From NCBI RefSeq assembly GCF_028743715.1, contig NZ_CP117996.1:3038001-3102000 (forward strand): a DNA stretch of 64,000 nt, given 5' to 3'. The stretch is from Microbacterium sp. Clip185 (GTDB taxonomy: Bacteria; Actinomycetota; Actinomycetes; Actinomycetales; Microbacteriaceae). The translations under genes and the position numbers were made by a program. Shown here in pieces: positions 139-41,726 of the stretch. The notes under the pieces were generated by a model. It worked only from the letters and a program-made list of their open reading frames with translations, was not told the origin of the DNA and made no database searches. Positions within the stretch are counted from its first letter, which is position 1. Each line of letters begins with the position of its first letter.

Positions 139-154
139 GCCGCGCCCGCGCGCT

Positions 155-225
155 CGCGAGACTGCATTGTGGTCACGAGATCAGGGGTAATACCCATTAT
201 CTCGTGGCGCAAATGCAGTCTCGCG
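155..225. repeat. 71-bp multi-stem intergenic palindrome
   Basis: Outer arms CGCGAGACTGCAT (155-167) and ATGCAGTCTCGCG (213-225) are perfect. Inside them CACGAGAT pairs with ATCTCGTG, and GGGT pairs with ACCC in the centre. It lies between two convergent genes and could act as a bidirectional terminator, but it has no T tract and its nested design resembles the other palindromic elements of this window. Confidence 0.75.
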
Positions 226-249
226 GGAAGTAAAGGGGTGGCCGGCGCG

Positions 250-1971
250 TCAGCTCACGGTCACGAGCGTGCGCTGCCAGCCGGACGACCCGTCGGGGGC
301 GACGGGGGCCGGCTGCTCGATCTGCAGCTTGCCCGCCGCATCGATCGCCCGCACCGCGATGTAGTGCGAGCCGGGCGTCGCATCCCACTCGAGCACCCAC
401 TGCACCCAGGCATCCTTGTTCACAGGCGAGGAGAGCGTCGCGCGCTGCCACTCGCCATCGTCGATGCTCACCTCGACGGCCGAGATGCCGACGCCCTGCG
501 CCCAGGCCATGCCGGCGATCGGCACCTTGCCCGCGGCCACCGGCTTGCCGAGCTTGGGAGTGTCGACGCGTGACGACAGCTTGATGGGGGCACGGTCGCT
601 GTAGCCTCGGGGCGTCCAGTATGCGGTGTCAGCGGCGAAGGTCGTGACCTTCAGCTCCTCCACCCACTTCGTCGCCGACACGTAGCCGTAGAGACCGGGA
701 ACAACCATCCGCACGGGGAAGCCGTGCTCCAGCGGCAGCGGTTCGCCGTTCATCCCGACCGCGAGGATGGCGTCGATGCCGGGGTCGGTGAGGGTTTCGA
801 GCGGAGTGGATGCGGTGAAGCCGTCGACGCTGCGCGAGAGCACCATGTCGGCCCCGGACTGCACACCGGCGGCGGCGAGCACGGTGCGCACCGGAACGCC
901 GAGCCACCGCGCGTTGCCCACGAGGTCGCCGCCGACCTCGTTCGAGACGCATGTGAGCGTGATCACGTACTCGTCGAGTCCGAGGGCGAGAAGGTCGTCG
1001 AAGCTCAGCTCGACGCGCTTGTCGACCATGCCGTCGACGACGAGGCGCCACGTGTTCGGGTCCACGGTGGGAATCGTCAGCGCGGTGTCGACGCGGTAGA
1101 AGTCCGCGTTGGGGGTGAAGAGGGGCGAGATCCCGTCGATGTCGAGCTCCGCGCCCTGCGGGATCGGAACCGTCGTCTTCGGCGCCGGCAGCCGGAGGGC
1201 ATCGCGGATCTGCCGGATCGATGCGGTCGTCGCGTTCAGCGCCCGCGCTCCGAGGCCCACCACGACGGCGGATGCGGCGACGATGCCGGTGAGGAGGAAG
1301 AACCCGCGGCGGTCCAGCTGCATCTCGGACGGCGCCCGCTTCGGGCGTCGTTCGGGGGACGCGAGATGCGGTACCGAGCCGCCCGAGCCCGCATCACGGG
1401 TCACTTCAACAGGACTTGTGGCGGCATCATCCGCTTCGAGGGACGCAGGATGCGGCGGAATCGCGCCGGAGGCCGCATCACGGGTCCCTTGAACAGAGAC
1501 AGTGGCAGCCGCGGCGGCGAGCTTCCAGCGGCGAAGGCGAGAGGTGAGCAGCATCAGCATCCAGATGCCGACGGCGGCGCCGGCGATGCACGCCACACCG
1601 GCCAGGGCACCCGCATCCGCGCGCGTGACCACGGCGGCGGTCGCGAGGGCTGCGGCGAGCGCGAAGAGCACGACGCCCCACAGCGGTCGGAGGGTCTCGA
1701 CGATGCCGATGACGGCGGCCGCGATCACCACGGCCACCGCGAGGGAGGCGAGCAGCACCGCTTTGTCGGCGGTGCCGAACGTCGAGATCGCGAACTCCTT
1801 GAGCGGACGCGGCACGATGTCGATGACGAACGACCCGACGGCGATCAGGGGACTGGTGCCGCGCGAGACGAGGGCGGCGACCGCCTCGCTGACCGCGAGG
1901 AAGGCCGCTGCCGCAACGACACCGGCGAGCGAAGCCCAACCCCACGTCGTGCGCATCCGCAGTCGTGTCAT
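250..1971 (-). CDS. Membrane-anchored molybdopterin-dependent oxidoreductase (sulfite oxidase/YedY-like)
   Basis: 573 aa. The first ~150 residues hold several hydrophobic helices; a polar linker follows (about 155-215); a twin-arginine-like DRRGFFLL segment leads into another helix; the C-terminal half is an oxidoreductase molybdopterin-binding domain with a Mo-co dimerisation-like tail. The TCVSNEVGG stretch carries the family's molybdenum-ligating cysteine (about Cys341). The active site is expected outside the membrane, and the substrate is unknown. I chose the ATG at 1971 because GGAG precedes it; an in-frame ATG at 2004 has no ribosome site. It lies 59 bp after the fasciclin gene in the same direction, probably one transcript. 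The linker contains two in-frame copies of a 61-bp palindromic repeat. Confidence 0.88.
   Translation of the reverse strand: MTRLRMRTTWGWASLAGVVAAAAFLAVSEAVAALVSRGTSPLIAVGSFVIDIVPRPLKEFAISTFGTADKAVLLASLAVAVVIAAAVIGIVETLRPLWGVVLFALAAALATAAVVTRADAGALAGVACIAGAAVGIWMLMLLTSRLRRWKLAAAAATVSVQGTRDAASGAIPPHPASLEADDAATSPVEVTRDAGSGGSVPHLASPERRPKRAPSEMQLDRRGFFLLTGIVAASAVVVGLGARALNATTASIRQIRDALRLPAPKTTVPIPQGAELDIDGISPLFTPNADFYRVDTALTIPTVDPNTWRLVVDGMVDKRVELSFDDLLALGLDEYVITLTCVSNEVGGDLVGNARWLGVPVRTVLAAAGVQSGADMVLSRSVDGFTASTPLETLTDPGIDAILAVGMNGEPLPLEHGFPVRMVVPGLYGYVSATKWVEELKVTTFAADTAYWTPRGYSDRAPIKLSSRVDTPKLGKPVAAGKVPIAGMAWAQGVGISAVEVSIDDGEWQRATLSSPVNKDAWVQWVLEWDATPGSHYIAVRAIDAAGKLQIEQPAPVAPDGSSGWQRTLVTVS
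1350..1494. repeat. Two copies of the 61-bp palindromic repeat, in frame inside a gene
   Basis: Copies at 1350-1410 and 1434-1494, each 61 bp, separated by 23 bp. Ends are TTCGGGGGAC/GTCACTTCAA and TTCGAGGGAC/GTCCCTTGAA, with inner arms GATGCGG/CCGCATC. The same unit with 13-bp spacers occurs at 12377-12585 and 41502-41710. Here the period is 84 bp (28 codons), so the encoded peptides TRDAASGAIPPHPASLE and TRDAGSGGSVPHLASPE repeat in frame in the linker between membrane and catalytic domains. Confidence 0.85.
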
Positions 1972-2030
1972 GGTCGGTCTCCGCTCGCCGGTCCGGCGAT
2001 TCACGCCGGGGTGTCGTCAGTGTTCAGGGA

Positions 2031-12290: not shown

Positions 12291-12376
12291 CATGTCTGCA
12301 TGTCCGCCCTTCTCGCCCTCGTGCGGCACCCGCCCCAGAGCCTCGCGGCCCGCTCCCGACCCCGGGGCCTCTGCAT

Positions 12377-12585
12377 GTTCGAGGGACCCGGAACGTCACG
12401 CCCACGGCCCGAACACGACAACACGCGTCCCTCGAACGAGAACACCCCACGTTGAAGGGACCCGGAACGTCACGCCCACGGCCCGAACACGACAACACGC
12501 GTCCCTCGAACAAGAGGACGCCCCATTCGAGGGACGCGAAACGTCACGCCCGCGGCCCGAACGCGACAACACGCGTCCCTCGAAC
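12377..12585. repeat. Three 61-bp palindromic repeats with a 74-bp period
   Basis: Units at 12377-12437, 12451-12511 and 12525-12585, with two 13-bp spacers. Units begin GTTCGAGGGAC (or close variants) and end GTCCCTCGAAC, an 11-bp terminal inverted repeat; the middles are also near-identical among the three. They fill most of the 370-bp gap between the convergent DoxX and dosR-like genes; apart from the hairpin at 12252 I see no gene there. Confidence 0.9.
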
Positions 12586-12602
12586 GAGGAGCGGGGGCGG
12601 GG

Positions 12603-14977: not shown

Positions 14978-15027
14978 GTTCGCCTGTCACAGATCGAGCC
15001 GGCGGGCTCGATCTGTGACAGGCGAAC
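14978..15027. repeat. 50-bp perfect hairpin between divergent genes
   Basis: Perfect 23-bp arms (14978-15000 and 15005-15027; core CTGTCACAGATCGAGCC) around a GGCG loop. It lies in the 271-bp gap between the sensor kinase and the aldehyde dehydrogenase, which diverge, so it cannot be a simple terminator for either gene. The rest of this gap shows no gene. Confidence 0.85.
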
Positions 15028-41517: not shown

Positions 41518-41710
41518 CCCCGCGGCGGCGTCACGCCGCACGACGTGTCTCGTCCCTCGAAGACGGGCCCACCCGGTCGGAGGGACCCGAAACGCGGCCC
41601 GCACGACCGAACCACGACGTTTCGCGTCCCTCGAACGCGGACCCATCCGATTCAAGGGACCCGAAATGCGGCCGGCGCGCTCGCACAGCGACATCACGGG
41701 TCCCTCGAAC
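41502..41710. repeat. 61-bp palindromic repeats, 74-bp period (second locus)
   Basis: Clear units at 41576-41636 and 41650-41710; a degenerate unit at 41502-41562 keeps CGTCCCTCGAA at its right end and overlaps the stop of the S-component gene. Spacers are 13 bp (41563-41575, 41637-41649). Units share AGGGACCCGAAA and GTCCCTCGAAC with the array at 12377. It lies between the convergent ECF operon and an acyl-CoA dehydrogenase. Confidence 0.85.
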
Positions 41711-41726
41711 GGGATGGGGGCGGCGG

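Follow-up and report, generated by a model that had tools for sequence, protein, structure and literature searches.

Palindromic repeats located between genes and in frame within two enzyme genes of a Microbacterium clade

The genome analysed carries a family of imperfect palindromes, called F1, that occurs between genes and, in frame, within two unrelated protein genes. The family is restricted to one clade of Microbacterium; in two of its species it has decayed, and at many sites it has been replaced in place by a second palindrome family, F2. The F1 sequences are probably REPIN/RPE-like palindromes, which spread, are tolerated within protein linkers and gave way to F2 at the same sites.

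The window, i.e., the whole stretch of DNA that was analysed, comprises 64,000 bp and corresponds to positions 3038001-3102000 of the single 3,305,635-bp contig of its source genome (G000). Coordinates up to 64,000 are window positions, and larger G000 coordinates are contig positions. The features are as follows:

154..226, F3 palindrome with GAGACTGCATT...CACGAGA arms, directly 3' of the oxidoreductase gene
250..2004, minus strand, membrane Mo-cofactor oxidoreductase of 584 aa, host of two F1 units
1351..1411, F1 unit 1, 61 bp, nearer the catalytic domain, half-sites of 25.7 and 22.2 bits
1412..1434, spacer between the in-gene F1 units, 23 bp, maintaining an 84-bp (28-codon) period
1435..1495, F1 unit 2, 61 bp, half-sites of 18.1 and 36.2 bits
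about 12375..12587, F1 array of three units with a period of 74 bp, between convergent genes
14979..15026, F2 palindrome of 48 bp with TTCGCCTGTCACAGATCG arms, between divergent genes
about 41540..41712, F1 array of a right half-site and two full units with a period of 74 bp, between convergent genes
C1:379881-382469 of G000 (L006:882-3470), minus strand, FbiC-like gene of 862 aa

F1 units within two reading frames

The oxidoreductase matched the Pfam families PF00174 (Oxidored_molyb, 9.3e-46) and PF03404 (6.4e-06). Its insert is located after the N-terminal part and before a DRRGFF stretch, which is followed by the catalytic domain. The two 61-bp palindromes that the preliminary description of the window had placed in frame in this linker were found at 1351-1411 and 1435-1495, with a spacer of 23 bp and a start-to-start distance of 84 bp; they encode the peptides TRDAASGAIPP and TRDAGSGGSVP. 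When synonymous codons were shuffled, which preserves the protein and its codon usage, the gene contained on average 0.44 half-sites vs the four observed, and a paired unit was re-created in 18 of 1000 shuffles, while the real gene has two.

The alignment of orthologues, proposed earlier as a check, showed that the insert is absent in all 26 aligned oxidoreductases from outside the clade. The linker peptides, which an ancestral repeat would have left in every orthologue, were missing from each of them, and none contained an F1 half-site of at least 12 bits. The linkers of 25 of these proteins have 8-40 residues and that of one has 55, compared with 69 in G000; judging from this variable length, the linker is probably flexible. 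Within the clade, two units are present in G000, G078 and G313. Genomes G303 and G079 have a single one, as unit 1 is kept in a decayed form (weak half-sites of 8-15 bits) and unit 2 is missing. The G313 linker (L055) also contains a run of PAASS-type repeats besides the palindromes, which may be a further sign of a linker that freely accepts sequence.

The second coding case is the 862-aa gene, which matched Radical_SAM (1.6e-22) and, below the threshold, CofH_C (20.4 bits vs a cut-off of 27); its domain order suggests an FbiC (FO synthase) fusion. Three in-frame F1 units with periods of 84 and 99 bp are located at 381000-381247, in the linker between the CofG and CofH halves, and they are read in the same frame as in the oxidoreductase (VQGTR...SLE). 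The number of units at this site is three in G000, one in G313, one in G078 and none in G303 and G079, where TGTTCGAAGGAACA and GTTCAGAGGAACA persist and look like remnants of the outer ends of a unit. Synonymous shuffling re-formed a paired unit in 333 of 1000 cases and is a weak control here, because the FbiC peptide itself repeats. The gene was not found in any of the three non-clade genomes tried, hence the comparison has no outgroup.

Among 42 intergenic F1 units, the VQGTR...SLE frame has no stop in 41 on one strand and in 38 on the other. All 42 are open in frame +0, so openness alone cannot single out the frame that is used. The in-gene periods are all divisible by three (84, 84 and 99; 3/3), vs 3/26 of the intergenic periods up to 120 bp (Fisher p 0.005, small numbers picked by hand from the G000 period list). 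This result, the second case in FbiC and the absence of the insert in 26/26 orthologues support the earlier proposal that a palindrome spread and was tolerated within a linker. Five close species form a natural series, in which the oxidoreductase linker has either a pair of units or a single decayed one and FbiC has three, one or none, and the arising, duplication and vanishing of inserts in living enzymes become testable.

Structure and distribution of the F1 family

In the own-genome loci read and a 124-kb block, 51 paired F1 units were identified, or 48 under a stricter rule. The unit is an imperfect inverted repeat, mostly of 59 bp (TTC to GAA) or 63 bp including the outer TG/CA, in which two inverted copies of a half-site of about 25 nt, TGTTCRAGGGACNCGNNNYGYSG, surround a variable middle of about 15 nt. 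The GGGAC inside the half-site is 93-99% conserved per base (96 half-sites). The unit ends are TGTTC...GAACA, and CGTC is present only within the right arm. The genome-wide search that had been recommended confirmed the family: TTCGAGGGAC occurs 59 times, and its reversed control does not occur. A half-site matrix trained on units of G000 itself gave 42 matches of at least 12 bits in the 124 kb and none in the same sequence reversed.

Among 32 neighbouring pairs in G000, in-gene ones included, the tandem periods were 74 bp (17 pairs), 73 bp (3) and 84 bp (3), and 75, 83, 89, 96, 99, 113, 240, 270 and 640 bp in one pair each. The 74-bp period previously given for the two intergenic arrays of the window holds for both, but in the second array the first unit consists of the right arm only. 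The 84-bp period, which had been presented as peculiar to the coding copy, is not special to coding DNA, because one of the three 84s (161577 to 161661) and the 83 (3145260 to 3145343) are intergenic.

The variable arm bases do not match between left and right at positions 6, 13, 16 and 18 (z -2.7 to -4.1; weaker, z -0.7 to -1.7, with one unit per array). The existence of two distinct kinds of F1 arm is only suggestive: the signal is strong over 85 units, or over the 80 of 65 nt, and weak when each array contributes a single unit. An origin of the asymmetry in replication-strand mutation bias is unsupported, because A/T skew is almost nil in other intergenic DNA (12.3 kb, one replichore).

Matches to TTCRAGGGACNCGNNNYG numbered 61 in G000, 31 in G313 and 11 in G078, with at most three in each other genome among 366 genomes of the genus; the G078 count may be low because that assembly is a draft of 160 contigs. 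F1 is thus restricted to the clade. A scan of 56 loci from other bacteria, most of them Microbacteriaceae, found few long palindromes (one in 113 kb, seven in 252 kb; none in shuffled sequence), so a general genus-wide class of palindromes is unsupported. A different long palindrome, GGGCACGTTG..., is common to two Leifsonia records (L148:812-872 and L140:3095-3153), which hints that this bacterial family contains further lineage-specific palindromes.

On the chromosome of G000, 18 of 19 F1 arrays lie no further than 0.8 Mb from dnaA (KS p 8e-7, or 1.9e-6 with lone matches restored). In G313 the bias was found for 16 of the 20 match clusters (KS p 1.1e-5), and with the four lone matches restored p was 1.1e-3; two of these four were inspected and had no paired unit. 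F2 is likewise concentrated near the origin in G303 (2.4e-6) and G079 (3.9e-4) and is borderline in G313 (p 0.05, n=6), while F3 in G313 shows no bias (KS p 0.93, n=5). Orientation toward the origin was seen for the F1 units of 14 of the 16 arrays scored (p 0.004), a count that omits three of the 19 arrays with mixed or unclear direction (3039348, 315153 and 3127085) and shares its orientation call with the only suggestive signal of two kinds of arm.

Seventeen arrays for which the genes on both sides were called were classified by hand, omitting one at a locus edge and the two in-gene arrays. Eight are situated between convergent, eight between tandem and one between divergent genes, whereas the 51 gaps of 80 bp or more in the 124 kb predict 3.0, 9.0 and 5.0, respectively. 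Placement at gene ends has been described for REPs (PMC3733652).

Inheritance, decay and replacement by F2

All eight aligned loci of the 124-kb block that carry F1 in G000 also carry it in G313, as does FbiC, which points to an old family passed on by descent. The loci compared showed no recent insertion marked by a clean empty site or a target duplication. The palindrome had originally been called mobile or spreading; spreading fits most of the tests, but present-day mobility is unsupported, given the eight shared loci and the transposase searches, which found none. The gene tree, in which the outgroup attaches to the G313 branch (91% support) and G303 pairs with G079 (58%), fits an F1 family already present in the common ancestor of the five species.

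In seven intergenic arrays compared between G000 and G313, the identity of core half-site positions was 0.898 (289/322), vs 0.73 (390/534) for variable positions, middles and spacers (p 2e-9); the semi-variable (99/134) and edge (33/44) positions group with the variable class. The slower evolution of the core hints at selection for function, though homogenising copying could produce it as well as purifying selection. In the coding units, third codon positions gave no clear signal: core positions were identical in 13/14 and 12/14 cases in the oxidoreductase (rest of the gene 0.82 and 0.78), and in 7/7 vs G078 and 5/10 vs G313 in FbiC (rest 0.77 and 0.75).

F2 was found in exactly five of the 366 genomes (G079 23, G303 21, G078 17, G313 8 and G000 4), and F3 is limited to the same species (G000 9, G078 8, G313 5, G079 2 and G303 1). 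In five of six F2 pairs within 200 bp the tandem spacing is 63 bp, leaving a gap of 15 bp, as in F1.

F2 replaces F1 at eight of the 13 comparable F1 loci of G000, in G303 and/or G079. It is present in both genomes at a41 (the array at 41540..41712), a89 and a94 and at the F1 loci at 418 kb and 3009-3010 kb; in G079 at a115 and a116, where G303 was unmapped; and, as a variant, in G079 at the 185 kb locus. Decayed F1 was found in G303/G079 at a12, a107 and the oxidoreductase, with a small remnant in FbiC, and the 29-kb site is empty in G303, where the right flank is just 74% identical. The comparison covers array loci with a partner among the G079/G303 stretches compared, and those at 161, 315, 709, 2150 and 2518 kb had none. 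Seven of the 14 exact F2 loci of G079 fall on F1 loci of G000 (hypergeometric P 1.5e-10 for 20 F1 loci and an extrapolated total of 1360 gaps; 7e-7 if the gaps number only 400). To our knowledge, it is unusual for one palindrome family to take the place of another at shared intergenic positions, and this bears on the question of whether these repeats represent junk, parasites or functional sites.

Relation to known repeats and possible roles

Rickettsia palindromic elements (RPEs) are described as palindromic repeats that keep the reading frame of unrelated genes and occupy their non-structured parts, and in R. conorii about half of the elements are within reading frames (PMC10969869, PMC2996958). 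The comparison with Rickettsia elements made in the preliminary description stands for the in-frame habit, which F1 has in common with RPEs and their Wolbachia counterparts, and for the absence of the insert in orthologues of other taxa. It does not extend to size, taxon and array form: RPEs as first reported have about 150 bp and belong to alphaproteobacteria, whereas F1 units have 59-63 bp and form 74-bp arrays in a high-G+C actinobacterium.

REPINs are reported to have two conserved parts in inverted orientation, separated by a spacer, and to form tandem clusters (PMC3116915). F1 resembles REPINs/BIMEs, as described, in its inverted conserved parts, variable spacer, tandem clusters, location at gene ends and intragenic copies (PMC3733652, PMC3116915). 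Unlike the REPIN/RAYT system, the 51 paired F1 units in the loci read end in TGTTC...GAACA without GTAG, and the Y1 (RAYT-type) transposase family PF01797 was found in none of five genomes searched; the control search was positive in 5 of 14 known genomes. A RAYT as the mover was rejected. We therefore call F1 REPIN/RPE-like rather than a member of either group, because it combines a REPIN layout with the coding habit of RPEs but no Y1 transposase was found in the five genomes. CGTC-tagged REPs are likewise presented as short palindromes that lack a transposase of their own and in some cases lie within reading frames, but they have stems of 8-9 bp, and the F1 ends have no CGTC tag (PMC3733652). 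PARCELs are also palindromic DNA encoding tandem peptide repeats; according to the description they encode a conserved amphipathic 25-residue repeat, whereas F1 is mostly non-coding and its peptides are short linker inserts (PMC2996958). In-frame palindromic inserts are documented in Rickettsia, Wolbachia, Methanocaldococcus and some REP-rich bacteria (PMC10969869, PMC3733652, PMC2996958), and no report from Actinomycetota was found among the open-access papers searched.

As REPIN/RPE-like palindromes, F1 would have spread in the ancestor of the five-species clade and then multiplied locally into arrays. Most copies would have settled at gene ends with convergent or tandem neighbours, and others in frame in the linkers of the oxidoreductase and FbiC, where the element would have grown by frame-keeping duplications. 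In two sister species it has decayed, and many of its sites there are now occupied by F2, which is of similar layout. The copies may have been moved or copied by a trans-acting factor, and the protein inserts would be neutral.

A serious rival, which we nevertheless regard as unlikely, is that F1 and F2 are binding arrays for a putative sequence-specific DNA protein organising the origin half of the chromosome, that F2 replaced F1 upon a change in specificity, and that the copies in coding DNA are binding sites placed within a gene. The sites of Noc, SlmA and ParB are models for such arrays, and the origin-proximal distribution of these is shared by F1 in G000 and G313 and by F2 in G303 and G079. 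A protein-binding role also agrees with the conserved core half-site positions, with the in-place switch from F1 to F2 with the same 15-bp spacer and, by simple arithmetic, with periods of 74 and 84 bp close to whole helical turns. As the variable arm bases are not matched from left to right, pairing is not what is kept, which is also in line with binding. However, the restriction to a single clade, the fall from 61 to 11 matches among the three carriers (the latter in a draft, G078) and the decay in two species argue against it, as do the unbiased F3 and borderline F2 in G313 and the likeness of some arrays to plain tandem duplications. A broader version, in which the recognition sequence of an origin-centred, sequence-specific palindrome system switched from F1 to F2 and numerous loci in a few closely related species were converted on the spot, by a copying machinery without a known transposase that sets the 15-bp spacing and also edits linkers in frame, appears quite unlikely.

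It is very unlikely that the palindromes act as RNA hairpins, e.g., two-sided terminators or stabilisers of mRNA 3' ends between convergent genes, where 8 of the 17 classified arrays are located. The predicted folds of F2 at 14979..15026 (-49.7 kcal/mol, z -12.45) and F3 at 154..226 (-49.5 kcal/mol, z -10.56) are very stable, and those of the intergenic F1 unit at 12376 (z -3.33 and -3.93 on its two strands) and of in-gene unit 2 (z -2.57) also point that way; but in-gene unit 1 folds much like its shuffles (z -0.70), F1 is present within two reading frames, and the arms are less alike than under random pairing at positions 6, 13, 16 and 18, the opposite of compensatory change, though less so with one unit per array. 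An ancestral protein repeat with DNA similarity due to codon bias is extremely improbable, since, although FbiC shuffles often re-form a paired unit and the G303 and G079 oxidoreductases retain the peptide of one unit with weaker palindromy, the peptide and half-sites are absent in all 26 outside-clade orthologues, the same palindrome occurs between genes, and just 18/1000 oxidoreductase shuffles gave a paired unit.

No transposase was found by Pfam among 35 neighbouring or nearby proteins of the arrays, five of which matched no family. A phage or plasmid vector was also rejected, as the 12.4-kb F1 array matched nothing in phage or plasmid collections; viral contigs contained no F1 and a single lone F2 half-site without a palindrome. 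Rfam gave no match above the gathering score in the window. A YqaJ-like recombinase domain adjoins the array at 2518090. F1 arrays are located on both sides of a DUF559/REase_MTES_1575-like gene (C1:3009692-3010726 of G000, L016:2193-3227) that was missed by the codon-usage gene caller and is adjoined by a Cro/C1-type HTH protein; the matching interval in G303 and G079 holds three F2 units.
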